Source of the DNA: a virus
Reading direction: 5' to 3' (one strand)
Virus record (IMG/VR): IMGVR_UViG_3300029268_000083
Span: 1-32,104 of that record
DNA length: 32,104 nucleotides
How positions within the stretch are numbered: position 1 is the first letter of the stretch; each line of letters opens with the position of its first letter. Positions 10,655-23,272 of this stretch are shown in pieces. Position numbers and translations under genes: made by a program. Under the pieces are notes generated by a model that was given only the letters and a program-made list of their open reading frames with translations, had not been told where the DNA came from and searched no databases.

Positions 10655-10975
10655 ATGGATAACATACCTATAGTTCTCGATAAAGAACGGCACCTGAAAT
10701 GGACCATGGGCGGTATGGAGAAATTTCAGGAGGTCACCGGGATTGATGTGCTTTCTGGCGATGCCGATCCAGCCAGCTTCACACAAAAGGAAATCATCCC
10801 ATTTCTCTGGGCTTGTTTGCTCTGGGAGGATAGGACATTAAAGCTGGAAGACGTTAAATACATGGTTGATATCAGCAAGATGATGGAGTTTATCCAGCTT
10901 ATACCCAAAGTGGTAAACGCTGCTGTTCCCCAGGGAAACGCAGACCCAAACGCGGCGAGCCTCTCGACTGGCTGA
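10655..10975 (+). CDS. tail assembly chaperone, first frame (gpG-like)
   Basis: A 106-aa protein between tail tube and tape measure, the invariant place of tail-assembly chaperones. It begins IPIVLDKERHLKWTMGGMEK and has helical segments KEIIPFLWACLLWEDRTLKL and DISKMMEFIQLI. The frame contains GGGAAAC at 10933-10939 and ends 34 nt later. A -1 slip there would continue into the downstream frame, giving a longer G-GT type product. Both forms are expected to coat the tape measure during assembly. Confidence 0.88.
   Translation: MDNIPIVLDKERHLKWTMGGMEKFQEVTGIDVLSGDADPASFTQKEIIPFLWACLLWEDRTLKLEDVKYMVDISKMMEFIQLIPKVVNAAVPQGNADPNAASLSTG
10933..10939 (+). promoter_or_regulatory. -1 programmed frameshift site GGGAAAC
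   Basis: The heptamer GGGAAAC is phased as G GGA AAC with the first chaperone frame, so both tRNAs can re-pair one base back on GGG AAA. It is the X XXY YYZ form; lambda uses GGGAAAG. The upstream frame stops at 10973 and the -1 frame is open through the site to 11274. Frequency of slipping cannot be read from sequence. Confidence 0.85.
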
Positions 10976-11274
10976 CACTGTGGTCTGTCGGGAGGTACGA
11001 TCTTAATTTATCCGAGGATGATTTCTGGGCACTCACGTTAAAAGAATTGAGCGCCCTTCTGAAGCGCCGGGCGTTTCTCATCGAACGCCAGGATTTTCAC
11101 GCCGGGCTGATCTGCGCCGTGCTGGCCAATATTCACCGCGACCCTAAGAAAACCAACGCCTTCACGCCGCAGGATTTTATGCCCGGCAAAACAGAGAAAA
11201 AACAGCAAACAGCGGAACAGATGATGCAGATTATTCAACTCTACCAGAAGTATTTCGAGGTAAAAGATGAGTGA
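10939..11274 (+). CDS. tail assembly chaperone, frameshift extension (gpT-like)
   Basis: Second frame of the chaperone, reached by -1 frameshift. No good ATG/SD start exists; the TTG at 11047 would lose the conserved part. From the slip site it reads through PLDWLTLWSVGRYDLNL, SEDDFWALTLKELSALLKRR and NIHRDPKKTNAFTPQDFM, the pattern of the second tail-chaperone domain (DUF6889-like), ending QLYQKYFEVKDE. The fused product would be 95 + 111 = 206 aa. The stop overlaps the tape measure start by 8 nt. Confidence 0.85.
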   Translation, partial: RRPKRGEPLDWLTLWSVGRYDLNLSEDDFWALTLKELSALLKRRAFLIERQDFHAGLICAVLANIHRDPKKTNAFTPQDFMPGKTEKKQQTAEQMMQIIQLYQKYFEVKDE

Positions 11275-12886
11275 CGCAGAAAAGAGTCTTGTCTTCGTCC
11301 TACGTGCAAATATCACGGACTTTAATAAAAAACTCGGTGACGCGGAACGCCAGTTCAAGAAGTCGTTCGGCAATATCCAGGCCGACCTGAAAGCAACTGC
11401 TATTCAGTCGACGGCGTTGGCTGCTGCCATCATGGTGCCCATCGCGACTGCGTTCAAATCCTTTGCCCAGCATGGTGAGGATATAGCCAACATGGCCGAC
11501 AAAACAGGACTAGCCACCAAGGAAGTCCAGCAGCTGGGCTACGCGGCCAAGGTCACGGGCAGCGACATGTCCGGGCTGGATATCTCGGTAAAGAAGATGC
11601 AGCGGACGCTGGTCGATGCCAGGACCGGAGGCAAGGCGGCGCAGGATGCTTTCAAACAGCTAGGTCTGTCCTGGGAAAACCTGAGCAAAATGAGCGTCGG
11701 CGATCAGTTCAAGACCATCGCTGACGCGTTAGGCAAAGTAGAGGACGAAGCGACCCGCACGGATTTGGCCGTTACCATATTCGGCAAAAACGGCACCACC
11801 ATGCTGCCCATGTTCATCGAGGGTGTCACCAAATTATCCGATGCCTTCGATAAGCTCGGAGGAGGAATGAGCGATGCCGATCTGGAAAAGGCTAAGGCAG
11901 CGCAGCGGGCCATAGAGAATTTGGAGACAGCCTGGGGTCAGCTGCTCAACACGTTAACCAGTGCCGCCACTGGCAAGCAGGGGGCAGAATTCATTACCAG
12001 CCTTACCGAGGCGCTCGTTGGCATGAATAAATGGGCCAAAGAGAATCCGGAGGTGGTTAATGCCATCGGCCAGATCGTGATTGGTATTGCTGCCCTGGCC
12101 GGAGCACGGGGGATAGTGGCGGGCATAGGTTGGGCGCTGATGCCCCTGGTCAAAGCCTTTACCTGGCTGGGCACGTTTCTTCCTGGCTTGGGACCTATGA
12201 TAGCCGGTGTATTCGGAGGCACAGCGTTGGTTACTATAGGAGCTTTCCTTGCTGCCATAGGCGGCGTAGCGTTCTTTGTCTACGCCCTGGTGACCGAATG
12301 GGACAGGTTAGGGCAACTGTTGGGCATTGTGGGTGACATTATCCGCAACAATCTGAATATAGCCATAAATCAGGCACACATAGCATTCATGCAGGCCAGG
12401 GATGGGATCGTGAATGCATGGAATACCGTTGTAGCCTTTTTCACCGGAGTCGTTGATGGTATCAAGAACGCTTTCGTAGCAGTGGGGGAGTGGCTGACGC
12501 AGCCGTTCAGGGACGCCTGGGCGCAGATACAGCAATTCTGTAATGACATAAGGAACTCCTGGAATAACCTTTTCAGCGGTGGATCGTCTGCCACAGTTAC
12601 TGTTACTGCAGGTGTTCCGCGGACAGCTATGGGCGGTATCGTTACCTCTCCCCAAATCAGGCTGGTAGGCGAAAGTGGCCCGGAGGCCATCGTGCCCCTC
12701 AGCCAAATGGGAGGTATGGGCGGTATGGGTGGGAATACGTTTAATTTCAATGGTCCGTATATGGGCGATGATATCTCCAAACGCGCCCTGGTACGTGACC
12801 TTCAAAGAATAATGAATGAAGAGACTCGGCGTAGTTCATTTAAACCGGCTGAGACTTCGTTCTATAGTGTGGGCGGACATCTCTAA
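11267..12886 (+). CDS. tail tape measure protein
   Basis: Tail-length ruler and DNA-channel protein, 539 aa. N-terminal region is coiled-coil (FVLRANITDFNKKLGDAERQ, then QFKKSFGNIQADLKATAIQS), followed by the classic MADKTGLATKEVQQLGYAAK segment, hydrophobic helices from about residue 265 to 345 (IVIGIAALAGARGIVAGIGW and onward) and a glycine-rich MGGMGGMGG tail near IRLVGESGPEAIVPLSQ. At the usual 0.15 nm per residue it predicts a short tail near 80 nm. It starts inside the chaperone stop. Confidence 0.95.
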   Translation: MSDAEKSLVFVLRANITDFNKKLGDAERQFKKSFGNIQADLKATAIQSTALAAAIMVPIATAFKSFAQHGEDIANMADKTGLATKEVQQLGYAAKVTGSDMSGLDISVKKMQRTLVDARTGGKAAQDAFKQLGLSWENLSKMSVGDQFKTIADALGKVEDEATRTDLAVTIFGKNGTTMLPMFIEGVTKLSDAFDKLGGGMSDADLEKAKAAQRAIENLETAWGQLLNTLTSAATGKQGAEFITSLTEALVGMNKWAKENPEVVNAIGQIVIGIAALAGARGIVAGIGWALMPLVKAFTWLGTFLPGLGPMIAGVFGGTALVTIGAFLAAIGGVAFFVYALVTEWDRLGQLLGIVGDIIRNNLNIAINQAHIAFMQARDGIVNAWNTVVAFFTGVVDGIKNAFVAVGEWLTQPFRDAWAQIQQFCNDIRNSWNNLFSGGSSATVTVTAGVPRTAMGGIVTSPQIRLVGESGPEAIVPLSQMGGMGGMGGNTFNFNGPYMGDDISKRALVRDLQRIMNEETRRSSFKPAETSFYSVGGHL

Positions 12887-13440
12887 TGGCACAGCCCGTA
12901 TATTCCATAGCGATAGATTGGGATTGCGTGGACTGGGCAGGTGCGCATGACTTTACAGCTGCCGGCGATGATATTACCGGTGATGTTAAGGCATTCCGGA
13001 TATCGCGTGGTAAAGACAAAGATAGCAACAGTTACCCGGCGGCCACGCTGGAAATGACCATAGAAAATTCCAGCGGCAACTATTACCCCACCAACATAGG
13101 GAAGAATCCTGGCCCAAAAGTCCGGCTGTGGCTGCCGGTGCGTGTCCAGGCCACCTATGACGGAACGACCTACGACCTGTTCTATGGATATTTGAACAGG
13201 ATCACAGCATACCCGATAAAAAACCGGCAGGAGATCTACTTCTATGCCACGGATGGTATCGACCTACTGGCCAAGCAGATAGTAATTCAGGATATGGACG
13301 ACAAAACCACAATGAACGACGGGGCGGCGGTTAACCTGGTACTCGATGCGGCATCATGGAACCAAACGAGGCGCGCCATTGATGTCGATGGCGGCGACAT
13401 AACGAGCTTCCCCGATACCTTTGAGTTTGAGAAACCATAA
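12886..13440 (+). CDS. tail hub protein, part A (first domains)
   Basis: First of five coupled cistrons that together look like one baseplate/tail hub protein. The 184-aa product begins MAQPVYSIAIDWDCVDW, has DDITGDVKAFRISRGKDKDS, an LEMTIENSSGNYYPT strand region, VRVQATYDGTTYDLFYGYLN and VNLVLDAASWNQTRRAID. These are the ordered landmarks of the N-terminal part of large siphovirus hub proteins, which are normally several times longer. It stops after FEFEKP; the next cistron starts on the last stop base (TAATG). Function: tail tip structure joined to the tape measure end. Confidence 0.8.
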   Translation: MAQPVYSIAIDWDCVDWAGAHDFTAAGDDITGDVKAFRISRGKDKDSNSYPAATLEMTIENSSGNYYPTNIGKNPGPKVRLWLPVRVQATYDGTTYDLFYGYLNRITAYPIKNRQEIYFYATDGIDLLAKQIVIQDMDDKTTMNDGAAVNLVLDAASWNQTRRAIDVDGGDITSFPDTFEFEKP

Positions 13441-13622
13441 TGGCATACACGGACAAGACGATAACCAACGCATTTAACAAAGACGACACGCACCCGGAAG
13501 GCTATGATTTTGTGCCTGCCGCTGAACTGCTGAGACGTATCGCCGATACTGCTCTTGGTCGGCTATATATTAACAGTCTGGGCAATATAGTCTATGAGAG
13601 CCGTCATCATAGGGAGGCATGA
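13440..13622 (+). CDS. tail hub protein, part B (module 1, first copy)
   Basis: A 60-aa cistron coupled to part A by TAATG. The C-terminal half AELLRRIADTALGRLYINSL then GNIVYESRHHREA is the segment that, in undivided hub proteins, follows the part-A domain. The same module returns at the end of part C (KQALDDVMKLSIGRYYADAQ then GDFEYESRFRRNA). The 5' end supplies a short linker. On its own it is too short to be a folded hub, so it probably assembles with A and C. Confidence 0.75.
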   Translation: MAYTDKTITNAFNKDDTHPEGYDFVPAAELLRRIADTALGRLYINSLGNIVYESRHHREA

Positions 13623-14842
13623 TGCCCGGTCACTGGGAAAAAACAACGTGGTCTTTTAATCCGGTACAAGCGGTGGGTCATTACGAAGGCTATGATATGG
13701 ATCAATGGTCTTACCCGGATTGGCATCCATATAATTGGGATGGCAATCCTTCTGATTCCTACTGGCAATACGGCAGCGAGGCCCAGATGTTCGATCATCA
13801 GCGATTCGCCTCGCTTCAATACGAGCATCAGAGTGCGTGCACAACCTATCCCAATCACGTGCCTGGGCCGGGATACCTGAGCGGCTGGTTCGGCGATGAG
13901 GATATGTGGACATATCTGAAATCCTTTCGCTATGACCTGTCATGGCTGATCGATTATCTTGAAGCCAATCCAGACACATTTAGATTGGACGCAGAGATGA
14001 ATCCATATGTCCAATTCAATTACGCGTATTCGAACGTGGGATACGGAAGGAATTCCCTGCCGTGGCCTTCACCGGACATTAACGCTACTCTAAACGTGGG
14101 TGGTAATTCGATCGAACTGGGGCACGAGACGAGCAGCACAACATATAAAAGAGATCTGTCACCAGGCGTGATAGCTCCGATTGTCGAGTGTTCAGTATCA
14201 GCATCTTACACTGAGCCGGAGCTCGATGTCGGCCCTATAACTTACCATGACTTCTATTACTGCGGGGAGTTGTGGGAGAACAAATACGTCTGCATTTATT
14301 ATCATCAGGAATGGGTTCTCACCGGGACAGGTGGACGGTGCACGCGTCCCATCTTATGTGTCAATATCGAGTATTGGGTAGAAGACGAGCCGGTTCTGCA
14401 AAATATCGAGACCTTGAACGCCAAATATATCCACGTGTCCTCGGCCACTATTGGAGGCAAATTTACTACTTCCGATGATACTCATGTCGAGATGGGTATA
14501 CATTGGAGGCCCAAGGGCGCGACTTTATGGCAGACCTACTGGTGGGCCAAGTCGCCGTTTTATATAGCATGGAACCTGACCTTCTGGTACACATTATCGG
14601 GATTAAACTCCAATCGTACATATTACTACAGGGCATTTTTCAGGAAAGACGGCGAATATATCTACGGTTCGGAAAAAAGCTTTACGACGGCTGCGATTCC
14701 GGTAGTGTTCAAATATCCAGGCACGGAATACCGCACGGCCAAACAGGCACTGGATGATGTGATGAAATTGAGTATAGGCCGGTATTATGCCGACGCCCAG
14801 GGCGACTTTGAGTATGAGAGCCGGTTTCGGAGAAACGCCTGA
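13622..14842 (+). CDS. tail hub protein, part C (adhesin + Fn3 + module 1 copy)
   Basis: 406-aa cistron. ATGs exist at 13619 and 13622; 13622 is chosen because AGGGAGG at 13611-13617 is spaced better and the paralogous C/D junction also restarts at TGATGCC. Residues 1-250 are remarkably rich in Trp, Tyr and Asn (DQWSYPDWHPYNWDGNP and similar) and beta-like, suggesting a sugar- or receptor-binding domain. Residues 258-358 form a fibronectin type III domain (HVEMGIHWRPKGATLWQTYW ... LNSNRTYYYRAFFRKDG). Residues 365-406 duplicate module 1 of part B. Probable host-contact part of the baseplate. Confidence 0.72.
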   Translation: MPGHWEKTTWSFNPVQAVGHYEGYDMDQWSYPDWHPYNWDGNPSDSYWQYGSEAQMFDHQRFASLQYEHQSACTTYPNHVPGPGYLSGWFGDEDMWTYLKSFRYDLSWLIDYLEANPDTFRLDAEMNPYVQFNYAYSNVGYGRNSLPWPSPDINATLNVGGNSIELGHETSSTTYKRDLSPGVIAPIVECSVSASYTEPELDVGPITYHDFYYCGELWENKYVCIYYHQEWVLTGTGGRCTRPILCVNIEYWVEDEPVLQNIETLNAKYIHVSSATIGGKFTTSDDTHVEMGIHWRPKGATLWQTYWWAKSPFYIAWNLTFWYTLSGLNSNRTYYYRAFFRKDGEYIYGSEKSFTTAAIPVVFKYPGTEYRTAKQALDDVMKLSIGRYYADAQGDFEYESRFRRNA

Positions 14843-15309
14843 TGCCGGCCAGTGCATTCACTTTCAATAATGCGAACATCACCGATCTGATTTACGAGTT
14901 AAACGACGGTGAGTTGTTCAATGACGTGATGGCCATTGTAGGGGCAGCAGGTTCGGAAAACCTGGTAAGGTGGACGGATGACGGGTCCATTGCCAGGTAC
15001 GGTAGAAGGTCTTTCAGAATTGACCGCCCGATAGGGGTTGATGATGCAGTGGTAGATACATTGGTAACTGCACAGTTAGACCGCACCGTCGAGCCCTATG
15101 CCAACCTGACCATCACGGTATTATCCACGACTGCCGCATTGATAGTTGCCACACTTGAACTTGAAATTAGTAACAAGGTAACAGTCAGCGAAACCACGAT
15201 GGGCATGACTGCCGTTGACTTTATCATTGAGAGCATTGATATCAGCGTGGATCGTAACAATTTGATCACGGCGACATACGGGATGGTGCAGGCGAGAACA
15301 GGCGAGTAA
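14842..15309 (+). CDS. tail hub protein, part D (module 2, first copy)
   Basis: 155-aa cistron starting on the stop of part C (TGATG). It contains FTFNNANITDLIYELNDGEL, FNDVMAIVG, the short GSIARYGRRSFRID motif, and a C-terminal strand-rich TVSETTMGMTAVDFIIESI then ITATYGMVQARTGE. This order matches the C-terminal hub region of siphovirus tail proteins, where 'SIARYGRR' type motifs are common. Its own homologue is repeated at the end of part E, so it is one of two copies. Confidence 0.75.
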   Translation: MPASAFTFNNANITDLIYELNDGELFNDVMAIVGAAGSENLVRWTDDGSIARYGRRSFRIDRPIGVDDAVVDTLVTAQLDRTVEPYANLTITVLSTTAALIVATLELEISNKVTVSETTMGMTAVDFIIESIDISVDRNNLITATYGMVQARTGE

Positions 15310-16400
15310 TGAGCAATACGCTGTTCGAATCGTGGGAGTCGTTCAATGAGTATTGCTACGCTCGGGTGACTCTGGATCGCTGGGAGTGGCAGGTATTCTA
15401 TCCTCAGATCAGTCACACTATCACCAGCATCTCGGTGCTGATGTGTGCGCAATACTGGGATACTGTGGATTTAGGGAATATAACAGCCGAGATTCAATCT
15501 ACTGTATGGGACGATGGAGTGGAATCCGGCGACCCTCCATGCTGGAAACCATCAGGGGTCGCACTCTGTTCCGGTACCCTTGACACTTCTCTGATCACGA
15601 CAGAAGACCGTTTTGGGGAGTGGTATGAGATAACTCTTGGAGCAGGCGCATTTCTTGTGGCCGGGTCTAAGTACGCTATCGTACTAAAGGGGGAAGTTCT
15701 CGGCGACAATGGGGAGATAAGCTGGTTCTATGATTATGAGACTGATCCTCTATATCACGGAGGCAAGGACTGCGGGTACAAAAATGATGGTGAGGAGGAG
15801 TGGTGGAGTTGGTGGGGGCAGACGTATGCCTTCAGAGAATATGGGGCGCTCGGGGAATTCTCAGGCCTGTGGGATGCCAATCTGAGTGACCTCACAATCA
15901 CCCTCGACGATACTGAAATCTGCAATGACCTGAGAGTAATGATACCTCATTATTCTTATGATCTGTCATACGTCGGTGAAGCCGTAACAGTCAACTACCG
16001 TGATCTTGTTTACACATCACTGGACGGCGATTCCATTAACAAGTACGGCAGACGGTCAAAGGTCAACAAGTATCAGGTGATGGATGAAACCTTTCAGGAA
16101 GCATGGTGCGAGAACCAGAAGCAGAAGTACGCCGAACCTTATTACTGGGCTGAAGCCACGCTTCCCGGCACGGATGCCAATATGGTGAAATGCCTGGCCA
16201 CTAAAGTATCCAGCGTTGTGTCCCTGCTTAACACGCTATCCGGTATCAACAATGAATACATGGTTGACAGTTATATGCTGGAAGCCAGGCAGGGATGTTT
16301 AACAGTAAAACTGGGGCTACGGGAAATGGACACGGAACAGCAGTTGACGCTGTTCGTTATCGACACAGATTCAATTGACGGAGATCATGTTATAGGATAA
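15309..16400 (+). CDS. tail hub protein, part E (jelly-roll + module 2 copy)
   Basis: 363-aa cistron coupled to part D by TAATG. Residues about 30-180 look like a carbohydrate-binding or choice-of-anchor jelly roll (GEWYEITLGAGAFLVAGSKY then AIVLKGEV, and SWFYDYETDPLYHGG). From about residue 188 it repeats module 2: DANLSDLTITLDDTEICNDL, DSINKYGRRSKV, and a long C-terminal region that matches the order of part D. So a binding domain is again joined to a copy of the neighbouring hub module. Likely tail-tip surface protein. Confidence 0.72.
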   Translation: MSNTLFESWESFNEYCYARVTLDRWEWQVFYPQISHTITSISVLMCAQYWDTVDLGNITAEIQSTVWDDGVESGDPPCWKPSGVALCSGTLDTSLITTEDRFGEWYEITLGAGAFLVAGSKYAIVLKGEVLGDNGEISWFYDYETDPLYHGGKDCGYKNDGEEEWWSWWGQTYAFREYGALGEFSGLWDANLSDLTITLDDTEICNDLRVMIPHYSYDLSYVGEAVTVNYRDLVYTSLDGDSINKYGRRSKVNKYQVMDETFQEAWCENQKQKYAEPYYWAEATLPGTDANMVKCLATKVSSVVSLLNTLSGINNEYMVDSYMLEARQGCLTVKLGLREMDTEQQLTLFVIDTDSIDGDHVIG

Positions 16401-18305: not shown

Positions 18306-19343
18306 ATGAGAATTTACAATGCATCGGGTGCCGTGATCTCCTCAGACATACTGGGGGAATTTACGGCCAATGCCATATTTCCGCTTACCGGCTGGGCCTA
18401 CCGCAAGTCAATCACCATCAGCCGCGCTTCCGGCGCCGTGACCAATTACCAGATGAAACTGCTGGTCGGGAAAGACTCCGGCGCCACCGGTGAAAACGTA
18501 GACTGTGCCGGGCACTGCGAGAACGACTTCAGAGATATCAGGTTTACCAAGGCAGACGGCGTAACCCTGCTCGACTACTGGATCGAATCGTACGGGGCCT
18601 CGGGGACATCCTACCTGGCCACTATCTGGATCGAGTTCGATTCCATCGATACAGGCGCCACCACCTTCTACATGTACTATGGCAACAGCGGGGCAACATC
18701 GGCCAGCAACATCCAGAACACCTTCATATTTGCCGACGACTTCAGCGGTGCATCCCTTGATACCACTAACCGATGGGATGAGGGCGGCAGTGGAGGGTCC
18801 GTGGCCATATCCAGCGGCGAGGCTGTTATCACCGGTGCACGCCGTTATATCACAAGCAAGTCAACCTATGCCAACAATACCGCCCTGCACGCCAGGGTGA
18901 AATTCAGCACCTCCGTGGCAAGCTTCAAGATGCTCGGTTTCATAGGCACGGTCGGAAGTCCCAGTGAGCAACTGATGACCATGGGGCTCCGTTTTTATCA
19001 CGGAGACACTAATTTTTCAGCAGAATCCGGCAATGGGACATCCATACACAAACCGAGCCTGGGAGTGGCCTTTGATACGGCTTCGTATCATATCATGGAA
19101 CTGCGCCGCTATGCCATAAGCGGCACCAACTACGACCGGTTCATACTTGATGGGCGTTCTCCCGTGACCGGCAATTACCCGACTGCAACAGCCAGGTACA
19201 TCGATATCGATATGGACGATTCGGGCCAAGCACTGAATGTTGACTGGATATTCCTGCGCCAGTATTTATCAACAGAACCGGCCTGGGGTAGCTGGGGAAG
19301 TGAAGAAGGTGCCATGCCCATAACTCCTATCAGGATAAAGTAA
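18306..19343 (+). CDS. receptor-binding tail protein (DUF2341 + jelly roll)
   Basis: 345 aa. Residues about 28-125 carry DUF2341 landmarks: WAYRKSITISRASGAVTNYQ, VDCAGHCENDFRDIRFTKAD, DYWIESYG and TTFYMYYGNSGATSASN. From about residue 140 (FADDFSGASLDTTNRWDEGG) to the end is a laminin/jelly-roll-like domain, with FRFYHGDTNFSAESG and WIFLRQYLSTEPAWGSWGSE. DUF2341 proteins bind surface sugars; here it is the last gene of the fibre block, so host recognition is likely. The stop overlaps a negligible 8-codon ATG frame. Confidence 0.82.
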   Translation: MRIYNASGAVISSDILGEFTANAIFPLTGWAYRKSITISRASGAVTNYQMKLLVGKDSGATGENVDCAGHCENDFRDIRFTKADGVTLLDYWIESYGASGTSYLATIWIEFDSIDTGATTFYMYYGNSGATSASNIQNTFIFADDFSGASLDTTNRWDEGGSGGSVAISSGEAVITGARRYITSKSTYANNTALHARVKFSTSVASFKMLGFIGTVGSPSEQLMTMGLRFYHGDTNFSAESGNGTSIHKPSLGVAFDTASYHIMELRRYAISGTNYDRFILDGRSPVTGNYPTATARYIDIDMDDSGQALNVDWIFLRQYLSTEPAWGSWGSEEGAMPITPIRIK

Positions 19344-21129: not shown

Positions 21130-21888
21130 ATGGTAACAGCAACACGGGAACTGACAGTTTATCAATTCGGCGAATATCCCCAAGATATTCAGGTTGTTGA
21201 CGGAAAGGAGTGGTGGAGCATACCGGATGCCTGTCGTATTCTCGGCCATAAAAATTCACGGATGGCAACTAAGAGCATCCCAAATCAACATGTAAAGATG
21301 CTTACAGGTTGCGCCAAAGATGGCCGGAAAAGGAAGCTACGGTATACCGATGAGTACGGGCTAAACCAGTTAATCTCCCTGGCGCGAACAGAGCAAGCAT
21401 TGGCATACAAAGAATGGGCCTTCGGAACTGTCCTGCCCACAATCCGCAAAACCGGCTTCTATTCAGTCGCGCCAGCGGATAGCTCGCTCGCTCCCATGCT
21501 TGAGCAGATAGTCAGCACACTTGCCAACGTGGTGACTCAGCAAGGACAGATTCTTACCCGGCTCGCTACTGTGGAACTTAATCAGGGCTGGAATCAACTG
21601 ACCGTACACACTACAACTACCGTGAAATCAGAGGTCAAAAGGCAGGAAAGGACACCGCATATCATCCTTGACGCGATGGTAAAGGCCCACGCTCGCAACT
21701 TTTATGATGACCACGTTCCGTATGTGTGGAATATCTTGGTCTACCAATACCGCCTCGATAGGGGAATAAATTTGAATATCCGGCGCAGCAATAAAAATAT
21801 CACTATAGCGCAGGCTGCTGAAAGGGCTGGTTGCCTGGATGACCTTATTAAGTATGCCGAAAACCTATTTATGAACGACAAGAGATAA
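21130..21888 (+). CDS. BRO-family antirepressor-like protein 1
   Basis: 252 aa. Residues 10-110 match the BRO N-terminal domain: DGKEWWSIPDACRILGHKNS, IPNQHVKM, TDEYGLNQLISLARTEQALA and FGTVLPTIRKTGFY. A helical linker and a C-terminal ORF6C-like region (RTPHIILDAMVKAHARNFYD then VPYVWNILVYQYRLDRGINL) follow. BRO/antirepressor proteins bind DNA or the phage repressor and promote the lytic switch. Starts MVTATRELTV, nearly identical to the second BRO gene's start. GAGGGAG lies 8 nt before the ATG. Confidence 0.88.
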   Translation: MVTATRELTVYQFGEYPQDIQVVDGKEWWSIPDACRILGHKNSRMATKSIPNQHVKMLTGCAKDGRKRKLRYTDEYGLNQLISLARTEQALAYKEWAFGTVLPTIRKTGFYSVAPADSSLAPMLEQIVSTLANVVTQQGQILTRLATVELNQGWNQLTVHTTTTVKSEVKRQERTPHIILDAMVKAHARNFYDDHVPYVWNILVYQYRLDRGINLNIRRSNKNITIAQAAERAGCLDDLIKYAENLFMNDKR

Positions 21889-22510: not shown

Positions 22511-23272
22511 ATGGCAACAGCAACACGGGAACTGATGGTCTTCAAGGGGCACAATCTTAGAACTGCAATCAACGATGAGGGGGAACCTGGGGTACTTCTC
22601 GCTGATATAAGCGCTGCTATCGGGATCAAAAGGTCAAGCAATGTTGCCTCAAGGTTGTCAAGCAAGGATGCATTTATTAAATGCACCCTTACATCGGGTG
22701 GCATGCAAGACATGTGGTATGTCACGGAATCAGGGATTTATGCTGTTTTAGTAGGTAGTCGTAAACCACTGGCCAAGGAACTGACGAAAGTGCTTCTCAC
22801 GGAATTGCCCAAGCTACGCAAGCAGGTCGTACATTCAACGGACGTCCTCGCCCCACAATCTGACCATTGGGCGGTTCTCAAGGCTGTGGCTGCTGGCATG
22901 ATAGATATGCAGGCCGACATGGAGGCAGTGAAGTCTGACATTGCAGAATTAAAGGCAAGTAAAAAAACCGACATTCTGCTATTAAAGCCGGTCATTGATT
23001 ACAGCGAACGTGTCCGGTTACTTATCCATGACTGGGTAGAGTCTCACTCTGATAATCCGCGCGTCACATATCCAAACGTGCACAAAAGGCTTAATACTCG
23101 CTTCTTTTATAAGCACAAGCACAACATCAGCGAGATGGGCAAGAAGCGCAATAAGTCAGCCTTACAGGTGGCTATAGACCTGGGCATGGGAGTCGAGATG
23201 CTCTCACTGGCGCAGGAACTGGTAGACAATAACTTTGAAGGTTATTTCAGCGAAAGTGAGGTGCTATTTTAA
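22511..23272 (+). CDS. BRO-family antirepressor-like protein 2
   Basis: 253 aa. Starts MATATRELMVFKGHNLRTAI; the BRO N-domain shows GVLLADISAAIGIKRSSNVA, DAFIKCTLTSGGMQDMWYVT and LTKVLLTELPKLRKQ. After a helical linker, the C-terminal ORF6C-like region (DYSERVRLLIHDWVESHSDN, YPNVHKRLNTRFFYKHKHNI) resembles BRO 1. Sequence identity between the two proteins is strongest in the first 10 residues, with the rest diverged. It is expected to act on the repressor at the divergent operators. Confidence 0.88.
   Translation: MATATRELMVFKGHNLRTAINDEGEPGVLLADISAAIGIKRSSNVASRLSSKDAFIKCTLTSGGMQDMWYVTESGIYAVLVGSRKPLAKELTKVLLTELPKLRKQVVHSTDVLAPQSDHWAVLKAVAAGMIDMQADMEAVKSDIAELKASKKTDILLLKPVIDYSERVRLLIHDWVESHSDNPRVTYPNVHKRLNTRFFYKHKHNISEMGKKRNKSALQVAIDLGMGVEMLSLAQELVDNNFEGYFSESEVLF

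Follow-up and report, generated by a model that had tools for sequence, protein, structure and literature searches.

Few parts of tailed phages, of the T6SS and of related injection machines are as well conserved as the hub. The locus analysed here raises the question of whether such a hub can be divided into several small, separately made chains. Directly behind the tape measure gene of an uncultured virus of microbes, represented by an IMG/VR virus record of 32,104 bases (referred to as a whole as the window), lie five ORFs, A to E (12886-16400), which an earlier note had read as one large siphovirus hub protein divided into five coupled cistrons with duplicated modules.

Layout of the locus and conservation of the split

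The five ORFs are preceded by genes for terminase, portal, protease, capsid, connectors, tail tube and tape measure, and their position in the tail module, behind the tape measure gene, matches that of hub genes (Table 1). We confirmed on the sequence that all four junctions of the five ORFs are stop-start overlaps, reading TAATG at 13440, ATGATG at 13619-13624, TGATG at 14842 and TAATG at 15309. C starts at either 13619 or 13622, the latter being located 4 nt from the AGGGAGG motif. Because such overlaps are common genome-wide (of the 13 neighbouring gene pairs in the window that overlap by 1 or 4 nt, nine are located away from the four A-E junctions), their presence alone would not indicate that a gene has been divided. 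None of window A-E received a confident name from Pfam or PHROG scans, and no separate Dit gene was recognised between the tape measure gene and A, either in the window or in Pontimonas phage phiPsal1. The terminase and capsid show less than 60% identity to those of known phages, and a DNA search against known phages gave no match. The downstream tail region encodes a DUF2341-domain protein, possibly a binding protein (18306-19343, E = 5e-21), and two Bro-N antirepressor-like proteins are encoded close together at 21130-21888 and 22511-23272.

Table 1. The tape measure gene, cistrons A-E and their parts in the window (aa, amino acids; B′ and D′, paralogues of B and D)
Feature	Position	Strand	Assignment or basis
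Tail tape measure protein, 539 aa	11267-12886	+	PHROG tape measure families, E = 1.5e-34
Cistron A, 184 aa	12886-13440	+	Predicted N-terminal hub part: first tube-like beta domain and start of alpha/beta linker
Cistron B, 60 aa	13440-13622	+	Predicted helix-plus-hairpin module of the hub
AGGGAGG	13611-13617	+	Likely ribosome binding site of C (sequence)
Cistron C, 407 aa	13619-14842	+	Variable cassette, Fn3-like domain and B paralogue
C cassette, residues 1-245	13619-14353	+	Aromatic-rich (18% W+Y+F); other lineages have unrelated sequence here
C Fn3-like domain, about residues 262-355	14402-14683	+	Aligns in most lineages
B′ module, C-terminus of C	14696-14842	+	Paralogue of B
Cistron D, 155 aa	14842-15309	+	Predicted C-terminal hub part, second tube-like domain
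Cistron E, 363 aa	15309-16400	+	Putative jelly roll and D′ module
E N-terminal beta-rich domain	15309-15860	+	Putative jelly roll; window lineage only; model pLDDT below 50
D′ module of E	15861-16400	+	Paralogue of D; hub fold by model

Profile mapping showed that the order A-B-C-D-E is kept in all 14 IMG/VR contigs (contigs carry L numbers below), and separate searches with A, D and E returned the same 14 contigs at close level. Among the split contigs the identity of A, B and D falls to 46-56%. Over all pairs of the 12 distinct versions, one of them that of the window, A is best kept (median identity 67%), followed by B (59%), D (57%), E (36%) and C (27%). Gaps at the junctions range from −16 to +9 nt, frame relations 0, 1 and 2 all occur among the relatives, and no downstream frame is open for more than 26 codons 5′ of its start (range 0-26). 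In most comparisons, made between close pairs, dN/dS is 0.04-0.15 for A-E, i.e. the ORFs are under purifying selection; the exception is C in the L020/L021 comparison (0.38), since there the alignment crosses a replaced cassette.

These data bear on two readings in which the five ORFs would not correspond to five chains. If assembly frameshift errors or decay had broken a single hub ORF into five, the fact that all four window junctions go to the −1 frame would be readily understood, but the split is kept in 14 contigs with a start codon at every junction, and both the differing gaps and frames and the selection acting on every ORF speak against it, leaving this reading with next to no probability; sequencing error and decay are refuted by the conserved split together with the dN/dS values. 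That programmed frameshifting, stop readthrough or protein splicing partly joins the ORFs into a fused hub is also very improbable. The short overlaps of 1-4 nt would suit such joining, as would L020 and L021, where the stop of A is followed in frame by the start of B, but neither the gaps of up to +9 nt nor the short open stretches ahead of the downstream starts do, and a programmed frameshift is ruled out by frames that vary between relatives. The divided arrangement is thus real and conserved, and it is near certain that A-E are separate chains.

No relatives of A or D turned up in two scans covering bacterial and archaeal genomes. Most of the viral relatives, e.g. L004 (10001-10786), have an insertion of ~70 residues (NGHGLSN...YYVVNKT...) near the C-terminus of A that is absent from window A; a similar motif is found inside C of L028.

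Undivided relatives and the predicted hub fold

In 35 of 38 distant contigs (L032-L069), as well as in phiPsal1, A begins a single ORF, whose length is 361-400 aa; in full it is about 395-400 aa, and the shortest versions are cut by contig ends. Two further distant contigs end after 141 and 158 aa of the ORF, and in L069 (7926-8381) an A-like ORF of 151 aa is without a recognised continuation, which may reflect truncation, error or another type of split. Relatives with intact and with likewise split hubs, both envisaged in the earlier note, were therefore found: 35 contigs plus phiPsal1 of the former kind and 14 contigs of the latter.

The lengths of A, B and D sum to 184 + 60 + 155 = 399 aa, as compared with ~398 aa for the undivided ORF. 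On the undivided hubs, A matches residues 18-186 (hhalign E = 1.6e-38), B residues 186-217, directly after A (E = 1.4e-4), and D, weakly but in order, residues 266-343 (E = 0.05). Since the distant relatives hold A, B and D in one ORF and in the same order, the core hub is A+B+D; C is located exactly between B and D, at the linker position of the undivided hub. The idea of one large hub spread over five ORFs is borne out insofar as these ORFs replace a hub gene that is intact in the relatives. The counterpart of that gene is, however, A+B+D, corresponding to a short hub of 395-400 aa, and C and E are paralogous additions. A tree of A places the split and the undivided relatives in two groups, divided at 100/100 support, and a single origin of the split would be sufficient to explain it; the wide occurrence of single-chain hubs suggests that the split is the derived state.

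Homology of D to the undivided hub is indicated by the weak profile match, the order, one Pfam match and the fold of its paralogue E. The Pfam match is that of D of L004 to PF06605 (Prophage_tail; E = 4.7e-5, 23.6 bits, below the gathering score of 31.3), seen with one of 10 D proteins.

The AlphaFold model of the undivided L036 protein has a mean pLDDT of 51 (mostly 55-80 in the A and B regions, below 50 in the D region). Compared with the PDB using Foldseek, it gave 43 matches at E values up to 1e-3 (best E = 2e-7), dominated by hubs of phages, tailocins and contractile injection systems and by T6SS VgrG. The model of E (mean pLDDT 56; about 55-87 in the D′ module and below 50 in the N-terminal half) again matched hubs, with the lambda tail tip foremost (best E = 9e-7). 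The hubs matched include the MuSo2 43 kDa protein, Mu gp44, T4 gp27, VgrG, 80alpha Tal, T5 pb3 and the lambda tip. The tail hub fold proposed in the earlier note is in agreement with the matches of both models, at low to moderate confidence, and a predicted gp27/Tal-type fold with two tube-like beta domains is well supported, with low model confidence as its limit. At the sequence level, querying the PDB with the hub, D and C gave no credible match. The core is not a single polypeptide, as it is in most hubs, being spread across A, B and D in 14 contigs; this does not exclude it from the hubs, because those of lambda and RcGTA are divided as well.

In predicted secondary structure B comprises one helix and two strands. 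Because B is only such an element, the A/B cut probably falls within the alpha/beta linker domain, and the claim that all cuts lie at domain borders is not supported; B probably completes a domain that it shares with a neighbouring chain.

Copied modules and comparison with known hubs

Both module repeats that had been proposed were recovered in 12 of the 12 distinct versions. B matches the C-terminus of C (BLASTP E = 2e-5; profile E = 5e-6 to 5e-8) and D matches E (BLASTP E = 6e-9; profile E = 3e-11), with YGRR and EP kept in D and E and G..Y...G...YES in B and B′. By these comparisons the repeats are beyond chance. Tree reconstruction placed B and B′ in two 12-member groups, and likewise D and E, each with 100/100 support; both duplications therefore predate the clade. 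The modules lie in the order B, B′, D, D′, which would imply two separate duplications or a rearrangement, and not a single tandem block copy.

E diverges faster than D (median identity 36% versus 57%) and has an insertion relative to it. A domain ahead of D′ is found only in E of the window, of the near-identical L002 and of L003/L019, whereas in other lineages E is a bare module of 180-191 aa. Judged by this distribution, the putative jelly roll is a late local addition, younger than the duplication that gave rise to E. Hence the view that the second copies arose by duplication of hub modules holds for both C and E, with the qualification that the E duplication is older than the extra domain, while a binding-like domain ahead of the second copy is a feature of C (its cassette) and, for E, is limited to the contigs just named. 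By eye, the E N-terminal domain resembles parts of L025 C and of L015 (10421-10990); BLASTP gave no match between it and either of them. In L025 (7383-9239) an additional domain of ~155 residues follows B′, which is therefore not C-terminal in this C.

A divided hub is not new in itself, because two-chain hubs are known from lambda and RcGTA. In lambda, HDI resides in gpL and HDII-HDIV in gpJ (PMC10721106); the two chains are cut elsewhere than here, and no duplicated hub modules are described for them (PMC10721106). Lambda gpL has an iron-sulphur domain, whereas window A, with a single cysteine (Cys14), cannot coordinate a four-cysteine cluster and is thus not of the gpL type. The RcGTA hub (g13) and megatron (g15) together superimpose on T4 gp27 (PMC7296036), roseophage R4C shares this two-chain design (PMC10276861), and the two GTA proteins align with T5 pb3 (PMC10038345). 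One of the two chains in RcGTA and R4C is very large, in contrast to the three small core chains and two paralogues found here. T4 gp27, Mu gp44, VgrG, T5 pb3 and 80alpha Tal belong to the same fold family by Foldseek, and each is a single chain. A single chain is also encoded in phiPsal1 (gp19, AUV61428.1) and the 35 undivided IMG/VR relatives, where the hub gene likewise follows that of the tape measure and has the A+B+D order in one ORF of about 395-400 aa, but C and E are lacking. In evolved Tal proteins, inserted carbohydrate-binding modules decorate the hub (PMC7291167); these are located inside the hub chain, whereas here the presumed binding parts are on separate chains ending in copies of hub modules. 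Key-term literature searches, with most subscription journals outside their scope, found no hub in more than two chains, no cut isolating a 60-aa part and no exchangeable chains built on copied hub modules. What is new is the combination of three core chains with duplicate-derived chains, a variation on a known machine. A natural hub in three small chains would show which cuts the fold tolerates.

The exchangeable part of C and the probable role of the paralogues

The first 170-370 residues of C differ between lineages, while the Fn3-like domain and B′ are conserved. The DNA of L004 and L005 agrees at 92% of positions as far as the ATG of C, beyond which it is unalignable for about 1,170 nt versus 640 nt, and is again 87% identical from the Fn3-like region onward. 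Here a cassette has been replaced naturally, and on its left side the replaced stretch stops at the cistron border. The Fn3-like domain of the relatives gave weak matches to PhoD_N and Pur_ac_phosph_N, both of them Pfam models of Fn3-like type (best E = 6.5e-8), and that of window C gave no Pfam match. The replaced part of L004 contains, by eye, GLUG-like repeats and has a PHROG match of unknown function. A role of the cassette in receptor binding is suggested by its variability and position.

We consider it probable that A, B and D constitute a divided hub core and that C and E are docked paralogues with outward-facing parts. The three core chains, translated separately, would assemble into a trimeric gp27/Tal-type hub that closes the siphovirus tail tip, and translation of A-E would be coupled. 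C, with its C-terminal copy of B, and E, itself a copy of D, are later paralogues that probably dock on the hub via the copied modules; C would hold its exchangeable cassette outward on the Fn3-like stalk, and window E would additionally hold an extra outward-facing domain. Cistron borders would serve as clean exchange points, so that the virus could swap the probable receptor-binding part with the hub untouched.

It is unlikely, if a reading to be taken seriously, that A, B and D form the hub while C and E are independent, non-docking baseplate proteins, such as a second ring or a fibre adaptor. The faster divergence of E and its insertion relative to D would be expected in that case, but both module pairs retain their key motifs and the gene order is fixed in all lineages. 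Distinctly less probable still is a changeable hetero-hub in which some of the three subunits contain C and E in place of B and D; the points in its favour are indirect, namely that the pairs B/B′ and D/D′ are maintained together and that known phage hubs are trimers. Starting from the three-chain core with docked paralogues that we favour, one may propose that paralogous chains plug into the core and that binding parts are swapped in units of a cistron or part of one, perhaps with chain numbers that vary, a tentative proposal that we lean slightly against. Copied modules acting as docking plugs, if true, would offer a simple route to adding or changing binding parts, and the idea is open to direct test, because L004 and L005 differ naturally in a stretch whose left edge is a start codon. 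The C protein of L004 begins with MWLRILLLACILFSGC (10969-11030), which resembles a lipoprotein signal, an uncommon feature in a tail protein, and has a second ATG at residue 21.
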